From Anaerolineae bacterium (GTDB taxonomy: Bacteria; Chloroflexota; Anaerolineae; B4-G1): a DNA stretch of 9,746 nt. The stretch spans positions 1 through 9,746 of the forward strand of contig JAUWNP010000167.1 of the NCBI GenBank assembly GCA_030612585.1, written 5' to 3'. Shown in pieces: positions 1,429-9,746 of the stretch. A model generated the notes under the pieces. The model had not been told where the DNA came from, did not search any database, and saw only the letters and a list, made by a program, of their open reading frames with translations. Within the stretch, counting starts at the first letter, position 1, and each line of letters begins with the position of its first letter. The position numbers were made by a program, and so were the translations under genes.

Positions 1429-2037
1429 CTAAAGGAGCGGCATTTGTTTATCCGCTTTCTTCTTGGTTGTTTTCCTCCGTGTGGTCTTTTTGCGCGAACC
1501 GCGCTTTTGTTTCTTCTCGTGCAACCCCTGGCGGACCTCCTCCGCGTAACGCTCGTGGTTGAGCTGGAGCAGGCGGGTGAGGACCTCGCGGCGGGCGGCT
1601 TCGCTGATGGTGAAGCGGAGGCCCTGGCCCGTTTCGTGGAAGCCGTGGCTCAGGTCCAAATCCTGCCAGCCGTAGGCGGCGGCGACACTGTTGTCCATCT
1701 CGACGTGCAACTCGCGCAGCCGGGCGATGTCGGCGGCGGTCTCGTCGGGGTTGTGGAAGCGGTTGTAGGTTTTGGTTAGCCCTTCTTGGCGGTCGAGCAT
1801 CAGTTGGCGGCGGTGCTTGTGGTAGGTTTCGCCGATGTGGTCCAGAGTAGCGCGTTGTTCTGACACGCGGTTTGGAAAGGGGAAGGTTTCTAGGCAATCA
1901 CGGGGGGCATAGTTCAAAGTACTACTGCCAAGAGTAGAACTATATTGCCAAGCCCAATTATCGTGGATTGAAGACTGAAGTATAGCAAAAGTGGAATCGC
2001 TATCAGAATTAAACACAATCGTTTTGTATCTTCTCAA
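1429..2037 (-). pseudogene. C-terminal part of the DrmMI-like methyltransferase, severed by MITE
   Basis: This is the lost C-terminus of the methyltransferase gene at 2095-5706 and is in the same reading frame. The host part starts at about 2025 with KTIVFNSDSDS and continues with FAILQSSIHDNW, SSTLNYAPRDCLETFPFP, EGLTKTYNRFHNPDET, RLRELHVEMD, YGWQDLDL, RFTISEAARR and LNHERYAEE, the usual order of motifs at the end of this methyltransferase type. A Lys/Arg-rich tail (about 25 residues) ends at TAG (1429-1431). The nominal start is a TTG inside the terminal repeat of the element (2035-2037) with no ribosome site, so independent translation is unlikely. The segment shows little decay other than the insertion (no stop or frameshift), so the insertion looks recent. 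After removal of the element and one target duplication the full protein would be about 1382 residues. Confidence 0.85.
2018..2025. repeat. Target site duplication, left copy
   Basis: The octamer atcgtttt directly borders the element and matches 2147-2154. In the restored gene the single copy encodes part of NEKTIVF. Confidence 0.9.
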
Positions 2038-2146
2038 AAACTTGGGGCGGGTGTAGCGGGTGTAGGTCGGATTTGCTATCCGACCGGACGGCGGTTAGCA
2101 AAACCGCCCTACAGTCGTCATCCCCCCCTGAATATTGAGAAGATAC
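2026..2146. mobile_element. 121-bp MITE-like element inserted in the methyltransferase gene
   Basis: The ends are perfect 12-bp terminal inverted repeats: gtatcttctcaa (2026-2037) and ttgagaagatac (2135-2146). The element is flanked by identical 8-bp direct repeats atcgtttt (2018-2025 and 2147-2154), the expected target site duplication. It encodes no transposase and must have been moved in trans. Inside is a 53-bp double hairpin (2061-2113), a C7 tract (2122-2128) and a twice-repeated gggtgtag motif (2049-2066). The net addition is 129 bp, a multiple of three, and the only in-frame stop it brings is TAA at 2095-2097. Several IS families make 8-bp duplications; the terminal sequence alone does not let me name the parent family. 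Confidence 0.9.
2061..2113. repeat. Paired hairpins with complementary loops inside the MITE
   Basis: The outer arms tgtagg and cctaca bracket two adjacent hairpins. The first is ggtcggat-ttgct-atccgacc (2065-2085) and the second is ggcggtt-agcaa-aaccgcc (2090-2108). Stems are perfect. The loops ttgct and agcaa are exact reverse complements, so they could form a kissing interaction or a larger cruciform. This resembles a REP/BIME-type pair carried in the element. The truncating TAA codon overlaps the second hairpin (2095-2097). Confidence 0.8.
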
Positions 2147-5100
2147 ATCGTTTTCTCGTTGTAAACCCAATCTTTGGGCACAAAAGCAAGTACCACATAC
2201 TTGGTGACCCTCGCTACAACTAGTACTCGCTGTTGCTGAGCAACGGCACGATAAAGCTCAACTCGTGGTCTCCAGAATTGCCACCACATCTTCTCATACG
2301 TTTTGCGGCCCTTTTCACTGCCCATCCGCTCAGGATAAACGCGCCTTTCTAAAATCCGCATAGGGCCAGGGTAAGTCTGCGCTTTGGGAAGAGGCCAATC
2401 AAAAAAGTTGATAACCCAACGAGTGGGTGATTGATCAGGACTGCTATTTAGGTCTTGACCATTGAGATAAGGCTGAACAACTTCAGAATTGCGCGAGTCT
2501 TCCTCAATTAGATTTTGAGCTTCTTCAGGCGTTAGTACAAACCCCATCCCTCTTAATAAGGATCCTTGGAAACTCTCGTTCTGGTTTACAACCAATCTGT
2601 AAGGATCACCGCTCACTCTGTGGCTATCCAACAGGCTGGAAATGTGCTGCACTGACTTGCCATCCAGCAAAAAGGGTGGAGACATCTTGCTTTTGGCAAT
2701 GTGGATGACGTTCACTACCACGGCGGCCTGCCCGGGCCAGGGCCGGTCATTGTCAGTGCTGTAAATCGTACCGCCTTGTTTTACAATCTTTTCCAGTCCC
2801 GTCTGGCGAGTGTCGCCCTGGGCGATAGTGTTGGTGGCGATCAGGCCCAGCGTGCCGCCCCTGCGCAAGTGGGCAAAGCCACGCAGGAAGAAAAAGGCGC
2901 AGTAGTCAGCGTTGCCGCTGGAACCAGAGTAAAGTCGGTAGAGGGCTTCGCGGTAGTCATCACCCAGTGTCTCACGTATGCGGCGTCCACCAATGAATGG
3001 CGGGTTGCCCACGAAGCCACTAAAACCACCCTGCTCAAACACTTCGGGAAACTCGAAGGGCCAGTGGAAAGCAGACTGTCCCCGTGCTGTTGTCACCGCC
3101 CGTTGCGCATTCTCGTCCACGAGTGGTTCCCCTGCCGTGTAATCAATCAGCGCCTGCTCCAGCAGCGCGTCCTGTTCCCTCTGGCTCAGGTCGTCCAGCA
3201 GCCGCACGCCCACCAGCACATCGCAGCCCCGCTTAATGCGCGCCATCGCAGCCTCAGCCTCGGCCAGCAGGTGGGCCTTGCGTTCGGCGTCGTACACGTC
3301 CCGCACCTCGAAAGATTGCAGCTCACGCCGTTTGGCCCGCGCCGCCTCCAGTGCCTTGCGGTTCTCCTCGTCAAAGAGCGGCATCGCGCTGCCCCTTATG
3401 CTGTGGGACCAGCGGAGGAACATGTCCTCGTCGGCCCCAATCAGCGAGTCGCCGTGCTTCAGGGCATGATCCAGGAAGGTGAAGGAGCGGTGCTTGTCCA
3501 GTGTGATCAGCCACAGCGAGAGTTTGGCCATCTCCACGGCCAGGGGGTTCTTGTCCACGCCGTAGAGACAGCGGTCAACGACCAGGCGGCGGGCCAGCGT
3601 CAGCCGCTCGTCGGCGTCCTGGGGGATGATGGTCTCGGCTGGGTCGCCGGTGGCGGGATGGCCCTCTGGGGTGATTTGGAGATTGGCCCCCTCCCCAACC
3701 CTCCCCCGTCGGAACGGGAGAGGGAGCAGAGTGTCCCACGCTTCCACCAATCGCTCGGAGAGGTAGCGGCAGGCTTGCACCAGGAACGCGCCGGAGCCCA
3801 TCGCCATGTCGCAGATCTTCAGGTCGAGCAACTCAGCGGGGGAGCGCAGTTGCCACTCCTCGCGGGGTTTACCTTCGGCGGGGCCGGCGTAGACCAGCGG
3901 CTCCAGCGTGTGCTGTACGATCAGCTCGGTCAGGCTGCGCGGGGTGTAGTGGGTGCCGGTGGCGCGGCGCGTCGGCCCCTCCGTCACGTAGACGCTGCCT
4001 GCGGGAACCACCACCGGGAAACTGTAGTCGTCATCACGCACCAGCCCGGCAAAAGGCAACACGCGGCGGTACAATGCCTCGTCGTTACCACAAACCGCCC
4101 GCAACCGTTCGGCACGGAAGACATCGGACGTGGCAAACTGCGTCTCTATCGCTCTTTTGAGGGCACCAGCAGAGCGGCCTGTCTGCTCGCGCAGGTATTC
4201 CAACAACGCTGCCTGGCCCCTCGCCTGTTGCACTTCCAGTTCGGATAGAGAGATCTCCGGCTCTTTGCGCTTGGTACCCACCAGCCCCAGCACCGGTTCC
4301 GTGGCCCGCATGGCGACGTGGTCGAGCAAGCCCTCGTAGACGTGCCCGATCTGCTCAATGTCCAGGGCGCGGAAGCTGATGCGACGGGCCTCCGCCGGGC
4401 CGCCACCGGGCACCTTGACCTGCAGGATTTGCAGCGCATCCAGCAGGTGCATCACGGTGCGGTTGTTGATGGGCAGGGGGTCGGCAGGTGTGATGCGCCA
4501 GTGAGTGTCCGGGACGCGGCCTTCCAGGAAGGGGAAACGGTCAGGATCGAAGAGGCTGCCGCCATAAGCCGGCAGACGCAGGTTCTCGTGTTGCACGCCA
4601 TCGTACACGGCGCGGAAGGCGACCAACAGGCGGCACCAGGCATCGAAGCGGCGTTCCAGCAGTTCTTCACCCTGCTGATCGGCCATCTCGCGCAGTTGCG
4701 CCCGCAGGGTCGAGACGGCGTAATGCTGATCGTAGACCGGGTCGCCCAGCAGCAGCAGGCCTCGCTCCTCGGCCGAGAGCAAAAAGACCAGGCGCATCAT
4801 CACCGTCAGGGCGGCCTCGTACACGCGGTCTTCGCTGATGCCGGCCAACAACGTGCGCCCGCGGTCTTGATCGGCCTTGTCAATCGCCTGGATCAGAATC
4901 TCTACCGCCTGCCGCACCTGGTAGCCTAACTGGTCGGTGACTTCGTGCTGGTCCTGGGCACTGGCTTCCACCAGCGCCTCCAGGGTTTGGGCATTCTCAC
5001 CTTCGGAGGGCACGTTGAAGAAACGCTTCGCGCCCAGTAAGCTGTGAAAAGCGCGTAACGTCAGAGGTTCTTCCAGCCACAGCCCCGCGTACCAGGAGAC

Positions 5101-5706
5101 GAAGGTGGTGGTCTCGCCCCGCCTGGCGTGCACGAGCATCCATTGGTCGCCGTTGGTCAGCAGGCCCAGGCGCACCTCCGTGGTGCGCAGGAGTTCCATC
5201 ATGCGCATAGCGGCGCTGGCTTTCCAGGGGCGGTTGGGGAGGGGTTTGTCCAGGGCTTGCCCTGGGGGATAGATTTGGATGAGGAGACGTGGTTGCCTCC
5301 CCCCCTCAATCCCCCCCACTGGGGGGGAAGTACCCTTGGTCCCCCCCAAGGGGGGGGAAGCAAGGGGACGAACTACCATCAAGTCCGGGCGGATCACTTC
5401 CCCATACTCGGGGACGGTGGCCTTGATGCCGTCGGGGATGGCCTGGCCTTCGGCCAGGGTTCCTTCCAGGTCGAGCGTGTTCTCCAGCACGTAGCGCACC
5501 CAGGCGGTGTGGATGGCGGGATCGGGTTGCAGGCCACCCTGGTTGTCGGCCCATTCCTCGTAGGCGGCCCGCAACTCACCGGCCCGCTCGGCGTCACGGG
5601 CCTCCAATCCCTGTGGGAATGCCCCCATCAACACCGGCATACTGAGGAAGGGGCCGGATATTTCCAGCAGGGAAAGCCATTCGGCGTGGTGTCGTGCAAT
5701 TGACAT
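2095..5706 (-). CDS. drmMI: DrmMI-like Eco57I-type adenine methyltransferase, truncated by MITE
   Basis: This is the N-terminal 1203 residues of a giant N6-adenine DNA methyltransferase of the Eco57I/type IIG-like class, which in DISARM marks host DNA as self. An N-terminal domain (1-230) has RPDLMVV (106-112), LLIQIYPPGQ (141-150) and GLLTNGDQWML (181-191), a layout like the degenerate nuclease-like domain of type IIG enzymes. Motif X is GTHYTP (584-589), motif I is DMAMGSG (633-639), motif II is around YGVDKNPLAVEMAKLSLW, and the catalytic motif IV is NPPF (901-904). The target-recognition part follows. At about residue 1185 the 121-bp element enters; the protein then reads about 17 foreign residues to a TAA at 2095-2097. 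The missing ~198 residues continue in the same frame at 1429-2017. Two repeat insertions (residues 117-136 and ~660-673) are also in frame. The ATG at 5706 follows the previous stop by 10 bp and has only a weak ribosome site, suggesting translational coupling. The methyltransferase call is certain; the DrmMI label rests on the drmD neighbour and recalled similarity. Confidence 0.85.
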   Translation of the reverse strand: MSIARHHAEWLSLLEISGPFLSMPVLMGAFPQGLEARDAERAGELRAAYEEWADNQGGLQPDPAIHTAWVRYVLENTLDLEGTLAEGQAIPDGIKATVPEYGEVIRPDLMVVRPLASPPLGGTKGTSPPVGGIEGGRQPRLLIQIYPPGQALDKPLPNRPWKASAAMRMMELLRTTEVRLGLLTNGDQWMLVHARRGETTTFVSWYAGLWLEEPLTLRAFHSLLGAKRFFNVPSEGENAQTLEALVEASAQDQHEVTDQLGYQVRQAVEILIQAIDKADQDRGRTLLAGISEDRVYEAALTVMMRLVFLLSAEERGLLLLGDPVYDQHYAVSTLRAQLREMADQQGEELLERRFDAWCRLLVAFRAVYDGVQHENLRLPAYGGSLFDPDRFPFLEGRVPDTHWRITPADPLPINNRTVMHLLDALQILQVKVPGGGPAEARRISFRALDIEQIGHVYEGLLDHVAMRATEPVLGLVGTKRKEPEISLSELEVQQARGQAALLEYLREQTGRSAGALKRAIETQFATSDVFRAERLRAVCGNDEALYRRVLPFAGLVRDDDYSFPVVVPAGSVYVTEGPTRRATGTHYTPRSLTELIVQHTLEPLVYAGPAEGKPREEWQLRSPAELLDLKICDMAMGSGAFLVQACRYLSERLVEAWDTLLPLPFRRGRVGEGANLQITPEGHPATGDPAETIIPQDADERLTLARRLVVDRCLYGVDKNPLAVEMAKLSLWLITLDKHRSFTFLDHALKHGDSLIGADEDMFLRWSHSIRGSAMPLFDEENRKALEAARAKRRELQSFEVRDVYDAERKAHLLAEAEAAMARIKRGCDVLVGVRLLDDLSQREQDALLEQALIDYTAGEPLVDENAQRAVTTARGQSAFHWPFEFPEVFEQGGFSGFVGNPPFIGGRRIRETLGDDYREALYRLYSGSSGNADYCAFFFLRGFAHLRRGGTLGLIATNTIAQGDTRQTGLEKIVKQGGTIYSTDNDRPWPGQAAVVVNVIHIAKSKMSPPFLLDGKSVQHISSLLDSHRVSGDPYRLVVNQNESFQGSLLRGMGFVLTPEEAQNLIEEDSRNSEVVQPYLNGQDLNSSPDQSPTRWVINFFDWPLPKAQTYPGPMRILERRVYPERMGSEKGRKTYEKMWWQFWRPRVELYRAVAQQQRVLVVARVTKYVVLAFVPKDWVYNEKTMYLLNIQGGMTTVGRFC
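2147..2154. repeat. Target site duplication, right copy
   Basis: The octamer atcgtttt is identical to 2018-2025 and directly borders the other end of the element. Confidence 0.9.
3686..3727. repeat. REP-like palindrome in the methyltransferase gene
   Basis: A C-rich half (ccctccccaaccctccccc) is followed by a complementary G-rich half (gggagagggag) around gtcggaac. On the minus strand it encodes LLPLPFRRGRVGEG, the kind of Pro/Gly/Arg peptide left by a dispersed REP-like repeat. It lies between motif I and motif II of the methyltransferase and keeps the frame. Genome-wide repetition is inferred, not seen. Confidence 0.55.
5301..5360. repeat. Two tandem 30-bp G/C-tract repeats in the methyltransferase gene
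   Basis: Units 5301-5330 and 5331-5360 match at 23 of 30 positions; each has a C7 tract, a short spacer, a G7-G8 tract and then aag. A further C7 covers 5299-5305. Each unit is palindromic around the C/G tracts. They encode SPPLGGTKGT and SPPVGGIEGG in frame, a low-complexity insert at residues 117-136. The length (2 x 30) keeps the frame. Homopolymers of 7-8 G/C are prone to slippage. Confidence 0.8.
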
Positions 5707-5716
5707 AGTAACTCGA

Positions 5717-6532
5717 TTATCGTTCCGCCCGGTTCAGCGCTGTTTGCAGCCGAGTGAGCGCCGTTCGTGCCCGCCGTTCTAGTTTCCATAGTTCATCCAG
5801 GTCGTCCGGGTTGTGGACGGCTGCCTGGGCCAGTTGGGCACTGGCGCGGAGCAGGCTGAAGGCTGAACTTTGGATTGCCGGGCCACCCTTCATTTTGTTG
5901 GCCGCCTTGACCATGTCGCCCACCATCGGTCGCCAGTCCTTGCCGGGCTTTTCGCGCGTCTGCCGGGCAGGTTGAGCCAGTTCAGGCTCCAACGTGGTGA
6001 TGATACGGCCATTTTGCTTGGCCGTCATGTATTCCTCTTTTAGACGCGACCGAATGCCCCCACCAAAGTAGATGTTGTAGGAATTCAACGTCCCGTCGTA
6101 AACGATCTTCCCCTTGAATGGCAACAGCACTGCCTGGACCATAACCGGCAAGCGCCGCCCGTACAACACCTCTTCCAGGCTGTCATAGAGGGCCAACACA
6201 CCATACACGCCAGAGTTCTCGTGGATAAAGATAGCGTGCTTTTTCAAGTAGCGAAAGATCTGAAAGGTACCGGGGACGAACCGCTTCCATTTACGGATAA
6301 TGCCTAGATCTTCGTCCGGCAGGTCATGTGGGTTTTCGGCAACGTAGGCATCAATCAGTTCAGGATTCTCCCACAGAACGTTCCGCACCTGAACTCTTTC
6401 CGTTAGCGGCAGGTCGGCGTAATCCTCAACCGAACCCGCGTCGGATATAATCTGGTGCTGCTGGTTGACGTAGAATTGTAGTCTCCACATCAGATTGAAG
6501 AATAAAGCCACATCTTCCGTTGATAGTTTCAT
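5717..6532 (-). CDS. Uncharacterised 271-aa protein between drmD and the methyltransferase
   Basis: I do not recognise a named family. The ATG has a strong GGAGGAG ribosome site and sits 36 bp after drmD; the stop TAA is 10 bp before the methyltransferase ATG, so the three genes look co-transcribed. The N-terminal part (1-130) is rich in aromatic and charged residues, with a helix-like FFNLMWRLQFYVNQQHQ (11-27), a conserved-looking RKWKRFVPGTFQIFRYLKKHAIF (80-102 region) and a following hydrophobic stretch GVYGVLALYDSLEEVLYG. Residues 128-180 look like beta strands (VMVQAVLLPFKGKIVYDG) followed by FGGGIRSRLKEEYM. A basic linker (188-200) precedes a helical tail (220-271) ending in LERRARTALTRLQTALNRAER. 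There is no signal peptide, transmembrane segment or catalytic motif that I can name. A cytoplasmic accessory or regulatory role in the helicase-methyltransferase module is inferred from position only. Confidence 0.85.
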   Translation of the reverse strand: MKLSTEDVALFFNLMWRLQFYVNQQHQIISDAGSVEDYADLPLTERVQVRNVLWENPELIDAYVAENPHDLPDEDLGIIRKWKRFVPGTFQIFRYLKKHAIFIHENSGVYGVLALYDSLEEVLYGRRLPVMVQAVLLPFKGKIVYDGTLNSYNIYFGGGIRSRLKEEYMTAKQNGRIITTLEPELAQPARQTREKPGKDWRPMVGDMVKAANKMKGGPAIQSSAFSLLRASAQLAQAAVHNPDDLDELWKLERRARTALTRLQTALNRAER

Positions 6533-6568: not shown

Positions 6569-9500
6569 CTACCGGTCGAACCTCTCCGGTACCAGAAAGG
6601 TCACAGCCACAGGGAACATACGTGGCTGCGGGTCGGCAAAGCGCGCGCGGATGGCCGCTTGCTCGGCCTCGATCTCGCCTGGAATCTGATCCAGGCGTGC
6701 CCGCAAAGCCTGGGTGTTGCGGGTGAGTTGGGTGCGCTCGGCGTTGCTCCAGAGTTCCAACTGGCGGTACGCTGGCGCTGTCAACTCCTGCTCGATGGCG
6801 GCTGCCAGTTCGGTGAGCACCGCCTCGATATCGGCGGCCTCCTTGGTCGCGCGTTCCTGCAGGAGCCTTTCCAGGCCAGCGGTGCGGGCCTTCATCCGGG
6901 CTTCCAACGCTTGCTCCAACGAAGGCCGTAGCGTGGGCCACAACAGTGCTAATCGCTGTTGTGTTTCAACTGATACCGGCTTGTCCAGCATTGTCTGCAG
7001 GGCGGACTCGGTCTGCCCCACGTTCATCCGGCGGAAGCGCCCCTCGTGGATAAAGCCGCCTGCCGTGATGATCTCCTCGTGCAGCCGGTGGCTATCACCG
7101 CCGATCACCACCAGGCGAGCGTGCGCAACGACGGCAGGTGTATCCAGGGCGTGGTTGGGCACGCGCCGGGCGGTGACACGGTACAAGCCTTGGCGTCCCT
7201 CCGGCGACCAGACCTCGGCCCGCAGCAGGCGGAGCGACATCTGCACCAGGCGATGGTTGAGGTGGGCCAGCACCACGTCATCACGACCCTTGATCAGTTC
7301 GTGGTCGAAGACAATCGGACGAACTTCGCCCGTGTGTGGGTGGGCCAACCCCTCGGTGCACGCGATCCAACTGCCGCTCAACGGGGGCAGGTGGAATGCT
7401 TGTGAAGACCGTAAAGACCTGACAGGTTTTCCGAAACCTGTCAGGTCTGGCAGGTCAATGGGGCGCAAAGGGAGCTGTCCGGCCAGTTCCAGGGCAATGT
7501 GCACCACGGACTGCACGTGCTCCGGCGTCAGGTGCAAGGTTTGGCGGGTTTCCTGCAATTGCTGAAAGTGGCGCTGAATTTGCCTGAGCAGGTCGCGCTC
7601 AAACTTGAGCATCTTGCGCACCGCTCCCGCCTCTTCCTCGGCCAGTTGCGTCTCCAACTGGGTACGCCGGCCCAACATCGCCTCCTCCACCTGCTGGGCG
7701 ATGACTGGCCCCACTTTGCCCAGGTCCTCGCGGATCTGTTCCACCTTTTCGGCGGCTCGCACCAGGAACTCCAGGTCGGCTTCGAGGTCGCTGGGGGGTA
7801 CGGCTCGGGCATCGGACACCCGCCGCTTGTAGCCCTGGCCCGCAAAGTGATAGATCAGCGGGTCGTGTCTTTGGCCGTGCCGGTCAATGCGGCCGTTGCG
7901 CTGTTCCATCCGGTTCGGATTCCAGGGGATCTCCAGGTGTATCAGGCGGTGGCAGTGATTCTGCAGGTCAATGCCCTCCGACGCCGCGTCGGTGGCCAGC
8001 AAGATGCGCACCGGGCTCTGGTCGGGGCTGGCCTGGAACGCGGCCTTGATTCGCTCGCGCTGTTCGCCATCCATGCCACCATATAGCGTCATCAGCCGGT
8101 CGCCAGTCGCCAACCCCTCGGCCACCAGAATCTCGTGCAGCCAGTTCTGTGTCGCGCGGTACTCGGTGAAGATGATGACTCGCTCATCAGACCACTTTCC
8201 GTCGGGCTTGACGATCTCGCGCAGTTGTTTGATCAGAGACTTGGTCTTGCAATCGCGCTGGGCCATGGCCTTCGCGGCCCACTGGCGCATCTGGTCTAAC
8301 AGCCAACGCTCACGGGGGCCAAGTTCCCGGAACATCCGGGTGGCCGTATCTACGGCTCCGCTGGTGGCCTCTTCGTACTCGTCATCGTCGGCGTAATCCT
8401 CGTCTATTTGAGCAATCTGGCGGCGCAGGATGCCCACAGATGGTCGGGCCGGGTGTTTGGCCCGCCGCGTGGTTTCAACCGTTTCAACCAGAGATTGCTC
8501 GTGCTTTGCCAGAGTCGTAGCAAAGGCCGCCGGAGAGAAAAACAGTCGCTTCTTGAGGAGTTTGAGGACAAACTCGGTGGCGAAGCGTTCAGTGTTCTCC
8601 TGGGCACTAGCCTGGCGCAGTCCGGTGTACTCTTTGAGCCAGGCATGCACTTGCTTCTCTTCCTCCGAGTAGACGACTTCGATCACGTGCAGACGACGAT
8701 GGGGGAAGCGAGGCTTGCCATCCCACTCGTCCACGAATTCCGACTTGAGCCGTCGCACCATCACGGTCTCTAATTGTCGTTGATCAGGCACTACGCCGCG
8801 GGCAAAGCGCTGGTTGTCCAGCAGTTCGAGCAGTGCCGAGAAGCTCTCCCGATAGCCATTGTGCGGGGTCGCCGTGAGGAACAGTTTGTGCTCAAAGTGC
8901 GGGGCGATGGTACGAACGGCCTGGGTTCGCAGAGAATCTATCGCGTAGCGACCGGTTCCGGATGGGGCGACGTTGTGGGCTTCGTCCACCACCAGGATGT
9001 CGAAACGGCGGGGGTAGGTGGTTCTGTCGGGCAAGGCTTCGCGGAACAGGCGCATGGGCCGTTCCCGCTTCAGGAAGTCAATGGACGTAATGAGACGCGG
9101 AAAATGCGACCAGGGGTTGACGTGAATCCCACGGCTGCGGCGCAGTTGCTGCATCAACCGGCTGTCCACAATGCGGAATTCCAGCCCGAACTTGTCCCGC
9201 ATCTGGTCGCGCCAGTGGATCTGCAGGCCGGCAGGGCAAACGACCAGTACCGTTCGCGCCCGGTTGCGTACGATGAGTTCCTGGATCACCAGTCCTGCCT
9301 CTATCGTCTTGCCCAGCCCCACGTCGTCGGCAATGAGCAGGTTGACCCGAGGCATCTGCACCGCCCGCACCAGTGGATCGAGTTGGTAATCCTCGATTTC
9401 GACGCCACTGCGGAACGGGGCCTGCAGGGCGCTAATATCGGCCGAGGCAATCGCCCCCCAGCGTACCGCGTCGAGAAAGGCGTCGAGGCATTGGGGTGGG

Positions 9501-9746
9501 TCAAACCCTGTGGGATCGGGTAGCTCTACCTTTTCGCTGACACGAGCGCCTGGTTCCAATTCCCAGACCACCTGTAAGCCTTCCCCCAGCGCGTCATCCT
9601 CGATTGAAGTGAGCGTCACAAGATTCTGAGGGGCAGATTGGCTGCCCAAGGGGGGCGGAGTCAGGGTGCTGGACAGGACATCCGTCACGACGTAACGTCG
9701 TTGCCGCACTGTAACGATCTGACCTTGTTCGGGGATGTTGCCTGGA
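6569..9746 (-). CDS. drmD: DISARM SNF2-like helicase DrmD (5' end outside window)
   Basis: This is a superfamily 2 helicase/translocase of the SNF2 type, the ATP-driven motor of class 1 DISARM anti-phage defence. Numbering is from the first in-window GTG (9709). Residues 121-140 hold Walker A (DDVGLGKT), 240-245 hold the DEAH box (VVDEAH), and 279-281 hold motif III (TAT). The C-terminal helicase lobe has IIFTEYR near 510, TDAASEGIDLQ near 573 and the arginine-finger motif RNGRIDRHGQ near 603. A long, partly coiled-coil C-terminal region follows. The frame stays open above 9709 (PGNIPEQGQIVTV), and 9709 is probably an internal Val codon, because relatives as I remember them begin just upstream with GQ-V-VRQRRYVV. 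The true start therefore lies beyond the window. At least 1058 residues are visible, close to the usual family size. The stop is TAG, 36 bp before the next gene. An in-frame palindrome interrupts the region near residue 760. The family call rests on recalled similarity across the N-terminal half; the helicase assignment itself is certain. Confidence 0.87.
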   Translation of the reverse strand, partial: PGNIPEQGQIVTVRQRRYVVTDVLSSTLTPPPLGSQSAPQNLVTLTSIEDDALGEGLQVVWELEPGARVSEKVELPDPTGFDPPQCLDAFLDAVRWGAIASADISALQAPFRSGVEIEDYQLDPLVRAVQMPRVNLLIADDVGLGKTIEAGLVIQELIVRNRARTVLVVCPAGLQIHWRDQMRDKFGLEFRIVDSRLMQQLRRSRGIHVNPWSHFPRLITSIDFLKRERPMRLFREALPDRTTYPRRFDILVVDEAHNVAPSGTGRYAIDSLRTQAVRTIAPHFEHKLFLTATPHNGYRESFSALLELLDNQRFARGVVPDQRQLETVMVRRLKSEFVDEWDGKPRFPHRRLHVIEVVYSEEEKQVHAWLKEYTGLRQASAQENTERFATEFVLKLLKKRLFFSPAAFATTLAKHEQSLVETVETTRRAKHPARPSVGILRRQIAQIDEDYADDDEYEEATSGAVDTATRMFRELGPRERWLLDQMRQWAAKAMAQRDCKTKSLIKQLREIVKPDGKWSDERVIIFTEYRATQNWLHEILVAEGLATGDRLMTLYGGMDGEQRERIKAAFQASPDQSPVRILLATDAASEGIDLQNHCHRLIHLEIPWNPNRMEQRNGRIDRHGQRHDPLIYHFAGQGYKRRVSDARAVPPSDLEADLEFLVRAAEKVEQIREDLGKVGPVIAQQVEEAMLGRRTQLETQLAEEEAGAVRKMLKFERDLLRQIQRHFQQLQETRQTLHLTPEHVQSVVHIALELAGQLPLRPIDLPDLTGFGKPVRSLRSSQAFHLPPLSGSWIACTEGLAHPHTGEVRPIVFDHELIKGRDDVVLAHLNHRLVQMSLRLLRAEVWSPEGRQGLYRVTARRVPNHALDTPAVVAHARLVVIGGDSHRLHEEIITAGGFIHEGRFRRMNVGQTESALQTMLDKPVSVETQQRLALLWPTLRPSLEQALEARMKARTAGLERLLQERATKEAADIEAVLTELAAAIEQELTAPAYRQLELWSNAERTQLTRNTQALRARLDQIPGEIEAEQAAIRARFADPQPRMFPVAVTFLVPERFDR
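7415..7448. repeat. Perfect palindrome embedded in drmD
   Basis: The arms agacctgacaggttt (7415-7429) and aaacctgtcaggtct (7434-7448) are perfectly complementary over 15 bp around the 4-nt loop tccg. The extra half-copies gacc (7417 region) and caggtc (7451-7456) flank it. On the minus strand it encodes in-frame DLTGFGKPVRSL inside the helicase C-terminal region. It has no T-tract, so it does not look like a terminator. It resembles a dispersed REP-like palindrome that landed in frame; that it is dispersed in the genome is inferred. Confidence 0.75.

Follow-up and report, generated by a model that had tools for sequence, protein, structure and literature searches.

A miniature transposable element interrupts the methyltransferase gene of a drmD-drmMI pair in an Anaerolineae bacterium

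In an Anaerolineae bacterium, a gene for a DISARM-type DNA methyltransferase, drmMI, is split in two by a miniature inverted-repeat transposable element (MITE) of 121 bp. The stretch analysed here, contig JAUWNP010000167.1 of assembly GCA_030612585.1, comprises 9746 bases and is referred to as the window; all coordinates are window positions. Our joint reading, to which we assign a probability of roughly nine in ten, is that a MITE mobilized by an IS66-type, ISBst12-like transposase split a drmMI-type gene that is paired with drmD, leaving the module most likely off. The event is well supported and ordinary in kind. What deserves attention is how abundant the MITE family is, that it can be linked to a parent element of IS66 type, and that the core resembles repetitive extragenic palindromic (REP) sequences.

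The element and its insertion site

The segment at positions 2026-2146 is a real MITE: it is short and geneless, it has terminal inverted repeats and a target duplication, it belongs to a dispersed family and it has its ends in common with an autonomous element, the last two properties being seen in other genomes. The perfect 12-bp inverted ends (GTATCTTCTCAA at 2026-2037 and TTGAGAAGATAC at 2135-2146; 12/12 bp) are abutted by an exact direct repeat, ATCGTTTT (8/8 bp). By arithmetic, chance would place an exact 8-bp direct repeat directly against a perfect 12-bp inverted pair, all inside 150 bp, about 1e-6 times per window of this size. The ends continue imperfectly to 22 bp, as the 12 bp followed by six positions and a GGGG block. 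No transposase gene is present: leaving aside the ends of the split gene, a 53-amino-acid open reading frame (ORF) is the only one of at least 50 amino acids that overlaps the element. These features bear out the sequence-only reading of this stretch, which had described a small non-autonomous element. Folding of the single-stranded element gave one long hairpin, with z-scores of -9.5 and -8.5 for the two strands.

Table 1. Features of the 9746-base window
Feature	Position	Strand	Basis
MITE, predicted to be of IS66/ISBst12 kind (121 bp)	2026..2146	n/a	perfect 12-bp terminal inverted repeats and 8-bp target duplication
Target-site duplication ATCGTTTT, copy 1	2018..2025		exact direct repeat
Target-site duplication ATCGTTTT, copy 2	2147..2154		exact direct repeat
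Left terminal inverted repeat	2026..2047	+	perfect over 12 bp, extended to 22 bp by a GGGG block; 19/22 against consensus from 51 core families
Right terminal inverted repeat	2125..2146	-	19/22 against the same consensus from 51 core families
Core, REP-doublet-like: two inverted GTAG-tagged hairpins (2062-2085 and 2090-2112)	2062..2112		folds and similar cores elsewhere
drmMI 3' part, open frame, listed TTG start inside the element's terminal repeat	1429..2037	-	PADLOC DrmMI
drmMI-type N6-adenine methyltransferase gene, 5' part	2095..5706	-	PADLOC DrmMI 1509.9 bits; Pfam Eco57I and MmeI_Mtase over cut-off
Conserved protein, 271 amino acids, between drmD and drmMI	5717..6532	-	no PADLOC, Pfam or NCBIfam match; 1036 homologues
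drmD, SNF2-like helicase gene, open to window end	6569..9745	-	NF038317 DISARM_DrmD 1359.7 bits (cut-off 610)

The interrupted methyltransferase gene

The two ORFs on either side of the insertion lie on one PADLOC DrmMI profile, covering positions 5-1161 and 1159-1343 of 1347. The first consists of 1186 native residues followed by 17 foreign ones and is terminated by a TAA within the element. When the element and one copy of the duplication were removed by script, a single frame of 1382 codons resulted, with the junction after residue 1186 and hence 196 residues cut off. The sequence-only reading had correctly proposed the loss of the C-terminal part, although its figure of about 198 residues was slightly too high. 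An insert at the junction was found in 0 of 38 aligned homologues, namely those longer than 1250 amino acids among the first 40 listed (P0001-P0040; P0019 and P0029 were too short and left out), and the same 43-codon segment was looked for in these orthologues without being found in any. Together with the two halves on one profile, this upholds the earlier proposal of a split DISARM-type gene.

By profile matching, the break separates positions 162 and 163 of the 207-position profile for the MmeI-type target-recognition domain: the 5' half covers positions 29-162 and the 3' half positions 163-206 of MmeI_TRD. Individually the halves match weakly (E values of 0.08 and 0.15), and the profile scored over cut-off in all three intact homologues scanned. 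The 5' part thus keeps the methyltransferase domain, with the target-recognition domain severed. With the domain cut at this point, the suggestion that the truncated enzyme still works looks unlikely.

The split gene as a whole might work in other ways: read-through of the TAA or re-initiation at the TTG might yield enough of the second fragment for a split enzyme or for one longer by 43 residues, or precise loss of the element might act as a switch. The insert plus one duplication amounts to 129 bp, exactly 43 codons, with a single in-frame stop, and the 3' part is open, with an in-frame TTG start that lies 57 bases beyond the stop and is supplied by the terminal repeat. We nevertheless regard a working split gene as very improbable, given that no ribosome-binding site was seen by eye before the TTG, that the cut falls inside the target-recognition domain and that no close empty allele was found. 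Among the best 120 of 7999 scored homologues there was no near-identical allele, either with or without the element, and the top one, of 1369 amino acids, was 73% identical over residues 500-1190.

A young insertion fits the exact duplication, the exact ends and the clean, open frame downstream. The sequence-only reading had called the event recent, and these features agree with that claim, but the insertion is undated, there being no closer allele for dating than the 73% homologue.

An assembly artefact or a minority variant, in which the assembly placed a repeat inside a gene that most cells carry uninterrupted, was also considered. The window is probably, as we infer, a whole metagenome contig, and MITE families are repeats. 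However, an exact 8-bp duplication with frame-preserving flanks is the signature of a real insertion and would not be produced by a misjoin. This speaks against an artefact more than against a minority variant. We consider the explanation as a whole very improbable.

A dispersed family of elements

The copies and the parent element described below all come from genomes other than the host. A pattern search matched the 12-bp end pair in at least 120 GTDB genome stretches. Names of a type that we take, from general knowledge, to belong to Chloroflexota are borne by 114 of 120 matched stretches, and one stretch is from a Candidatus Altarchaeum archaeon. The exact 12-mer occurred 108-210 times per genome in six genomes picked for holding elements, compared with 2 matches in total for a reversed control. 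When the search was made with the 22-bp end (at most 3 mismatches), 59 of 298 genomes of the class were matched, with counts ranging from 1 up to 480 + 510 per genome, and the control gave 1 match. The termini are thus abundant in genomes other than the host. Among viral contigs, 0 stretches had the end pair, and a plasmid search with window positions 1900-2300 gave no match.

An exact 8-bp duplication flanks 74 of 121 assessable elements, and one with at most one mismatch flanks 84; every other length from 5 to 12 accounts for at most 8. These 121 derive from 122 elements, L116 being at a contig edge and not counted. With the window's own copy included, a simple score rule groups the cores of the 123 elements into 51 families. 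The GGGG block at end positions 19-22 is kept in 41-48 of the 51 families, depending on the position; unlike positions 1-12, it was not fixed by the search pattern.

Insertions of the family within genes are under-represented, as expected if they are mostly purged. Using an open-frame test, which asks whether a site lies inside a long frame running through it, we found 11 of 67 elements at in-gene sites, as against 1535 of 2078 positions picked at random from these loci. The 67 are those of the 122 elements that have 300 bp or more of flank on either side and whose duplication shows no more than one mismatch. The copy in the window also passes this test and so belongs to the in-gene minority. 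Since in-gene insertions are rare, the drmMI-type gene was probably dispensable or already idle.

Two loci show further features of the family. The element on the Candidatus Altarchaeum contig (L076, 482-580) is 99 bp long, shares these ends and is flanked by an exact 8-bp duplication; the genome holds many GTAACTTCTCAA ends, eight of them equally placed at 44-55 from contig starts. In L067, an end pair spanning 312 bp (974-1285), for which GAAATAAT is the exact 8-bp duplication, stands beside a second element, possibly as nested insertions.

The parent insertion sequence

The route to the parent element led through contig-end stubs in two genomes, where a transposase C-terminus stands beside the end repeat; stubs in two further genomes were mostly MITE-like, and long-distance end pairs within the first 120 loci yielded no parent element. 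Locus L200 contains a complete insertion sequence (IS) of 1866 bp (1495-3360), with 12-bp ends GTATCTTCTCAA on both sides that are identical to those of the window element and with an exact 8-bp duplication, AGTGACAT, flanking it on both sides. It has a single long sense ORF, open for 556 codons and encoding 530 amino acids from the listed start. The transposase bordered by exactly gtatcttctcaa that the sequence-only reading had envisaged thus exists, in other genomes (L200). A second element, in L202, is 1835 bp long, has the exact duplication TGCAGATG and carries a transposase gene broken in two.

The parent transposase scored 49.3 bits against Pfam PF03050, over the cut-off of 23.1, and its sequence matches identify it as an IS66 DDE-type enzyme, of a divergent branch in view of its lower score against the NCBI IS66 model, given below. 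Ten of the 20 end-bearing genomes searched gave a match to a 47-residue piece of it. Among the 120 relatives listed for the transposase (P0241-P0360), the longest contig is below 3 kb for 101, as expected because a high-copy IS breaks assemblies.

The single ORF, the 8-bp duplications and the GTA-CT-CTCA form of the end fit the ISBst12 group. ISDge4, a member of that group, is described as having the ends GTGACTACTCAGCA and GTAACTGCTCAGCA and a direct repeat of 8 bp, with a single gene for a transposase of 449 amino acids (PMC12898284), and at its two ends 9 and 10 of 14 positions agree with ours. On that description it differs in the size of the enzyme, which is about 530-556 amino acids in our parent, and the window element is geneless. 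From these similarities the window element would be a MITE of the IS66 family, ISBst12-like, on whose ends the transposase is predicted to act. MITEPsy1 (PMC3189936) and Nezha of cyanobacteria (cited in PMC3733652) are, as far as their descriptions go, likewise short and non-coding, with inverted ends, a target duplication and ends shared with an IS. The present elements differ from both in having IS66-type ends and many unrelated cores (the 51 families among 123 elements). Among the papers listed in searches of the open literature, titles and abstract openings gave no description of this MITE family or of IS66-type MITEs in Chloroflexota. An abundant Chloroflexota MITE family is now tied to a likely transposase.

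REP-like hairpins in the core

With the whole element as query, matches were obtained in three of 396 genomes of the class (G376, G123 and G333). The core alone was 91-96% identical in G376 and 81-87% in G123. At four of the six places where the core occurs outside L243 (two in G123 and two on contig 215 of G376), there was no end within 350 bp at up to 2 mismatches; the tandem core pair on contig 11 of G376 has a one-mismatch end nearby on one side and may be a decayed element. GTAG-tagged REPs have been reported in Chloroflexi (PMC3733652), and REP doublets are known as REPINs (PMC3189936). As described there, they resemble the window's core in forming GTAG-tagged hairpins as an inverted pair, whereas the pair in the window is enclosed by IS66-type ends. 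The arrangement is suggestive of REP-like hairpins packaged in such ends. The REP reading does not extend to most core families, because GTAG and CTAC occur at the two sides in only 9 of the 51 (the largest family included) by a tetramer rule.

A broader view would see phylum-wide modular elements, in which IS66/ISBst12-type ends package the REP-like pairs of another transposase and one transposase re-mobilizes them repeatedly, up to hundreds per genome, pruning defence genes. We offer this as a speculative view that is more likely wrong than right.

Weighing the proposed origin

A transposase other than the IS66-type enzyme might have mobilized the element. An ISL3-type transposase was initially a candidate in view of the 8-bp duplication and of the element's ends, which we take to resemble ISL3 ends, and was dropped in favour of the IS66-type partner; ISL3 transposases were matched in 3 of 8 end-bearing genomes. 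The core's likeness to the GTAG-tagged hairpins reported in Chloroflexi (PMC3733652) would fit a tyrosine transposase of the REP-associated kind that acts on these hairpins, but the duplication abuts the outer ends of the element, which are those of the IS66-type element. Mobilization by any such enzyme appears highly improbable; the transposases searched for were of the ISL3 and IS66 types. That this enzyme lineage normally carries the 43 codons, as the frame kept on both sides might suggest, is scarcely credible, the segment being missing from all 38 aligned homologues and holding a stop and transposon ends.

Several observations count against the origin that we favour, mobilization by the IS66-type, ISBst12-like transposase. 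The parent transposase scored 120 and 99.9 bits against the NCBI IS66 model NF033517, below its cut-off of 180. In L201 the ends surround a transposase gene 1847 bp apart without a matching duplication, and for 37 of the 121 assessable elements there is no duplication even when one mismatch is allowed. The transposase piece had no match in 10 of the 20 end-bearing genomes, including G001 with its 144 + 143 extended ends; these genomes may be incompletely assembled or may encode a divergent enzyme. No 12-mer is common to the core of the window element and the parent IS, none of the 122 other elements falls into the window element's core family, and the single relative found of the whole element is 76% identical, in G333 (L243), with both ends present. 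Finally, other copies and the parent transposase are known solely from the other genomes.

Consequences for the defence module

Under the favoured reading, a single-gene transposase of the ISBst12-like IS66 kind would act in trans on the ends of about 22 bp, and insertion into the drmMI-type gene paired with drmD would have duplicated 8 bp of target. Translation would then halt at the element's TAA after the 17 foreign residues, giving a protein that should retain the N-terminal and catalytic parts and lose about the last fifth of the target-recognition domain and all beyond it (196 residues). Such an enzyme should fail to methylate its target properly, and the module of helicase and methyltransferase would most likely be switched off, not turned on the host.

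The sequence-only reading had held that a restriction-type defence without its full host methyltransferase should be harmful unless the system is silent, the truncated enzyme works or the element leaves at some rate. This argument appears weak in light of the ARMADA system, in which protection was lost when any one of four genes was deleted, among them the methyltransferase gene, and for which the preprint's section on it reports no lethality (PMC12458937). A DISARM study proposes that DNA ends gate DrmAB and that methylation represses it (PMC9142583); loss of the methyltransferase could then still be harmful if drmA and drmB are present. For DISARM-like modules the point at issue is the role of the methyltransferase: losing a self-marker would be dangerous, whereas losing a part of the attack machinery would merely disarm the cell. 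The window provides an example of a defence methyltransferase gene broken by a MITE, and this natural knockout leans toward a role of the methyltransferase in the attack machinery.

The defence locus and its relatives

DISARM class I comprises drmD, drmMI, drmA, drmB and drmC. The window contains drmD and the broken drmMI, placed near each other as in class I; it differs in having the 271-amino-acid gene between them, and drmA, drmB and drmC are absent from the window, whose end is probably also that of its contig. In nine of ten relatives of the class, drmD is near and upstream of drmMI, with two genes between them in L237; the tenth, L242, has a partial drmMI match only and no drmD match in the fetched stretch. 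When ten proteins from L233, L235, L236 and L237 were run through PADLOC, drmA and drmB were found in L233 only and drmC in none, and the 245-amino-acid product of the next gene in L233 matched nothing. L239, L240 and L242 have genes of drmA-like size.

A preprint describes ARMADA as having two components in common with class I DISARM, namely a RapA-like helicase and a PglX-like methyltransferase (PMC12458937). The window resembles ARMADA, as it is described there, in its pair of a RapA/SNF2-type helicase and a PglX-like methyltransferase; the YprA-like helicase that accompanies the pair in ARMADA was not seen among the scanned gene-sized ORFs of the window. With drmA and drmB mostly not among the scanned proteins of the relatives, and with varied partners, the assignment to DISARM proper is not settled, and the locus could also be ARMADA-like or a stand-alone pair.

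The neighbours of the drmD-drmMI pair vary among L234-L238 and also include an ADP-ribosylglycohydrolase. An OLD-like ATPase lies near the pair in L236 (PADLOC) and L238 (Pfam AAA_15 with an OLD-like TOPRIM), L237 has an nSTAND1 ATPase and a CHAT protein, DUF3800 proteins occur in L235 and L236, and a HamB-like helicase lies further off in L235. The predicted structure of the 271-amino-acid protein has a moderate mean pLDDT of 69, and many of its 120 listed homologues are on contigs of 1-3 kb.

The N-terminal domain of the drmMI product, on the 5706 side of the gene, matched MmeI_N with 24.9 bits, under the cut-off of 27. At the nuclease position of this domain, a program alignment shows D in 21 of 23 homologues and Q-x-x in 20 of 23 in place of E-x-K, which we take to be the MmeI-type (PD-(D/E)xK) nuclease motif; the domain may be an inactive nuclease. 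A search of solved structures with the intact homologue P0001 gave no match. In L241 (5210-9595), the drmMI homologue is broken by an in-frame TAG. A second insertion of the present kind had been suspected there and was ruled out, the interruption being that TAG and the locus having no such ends.

Downstream of the interrupted gene, a stretch of about 100 bp (346-448) is similar to the 3' end of drmMI (1521-1619), as if it were a second, decayed end of the gene; an ORF of 94 amino acids and a TPR protein are located between the two.

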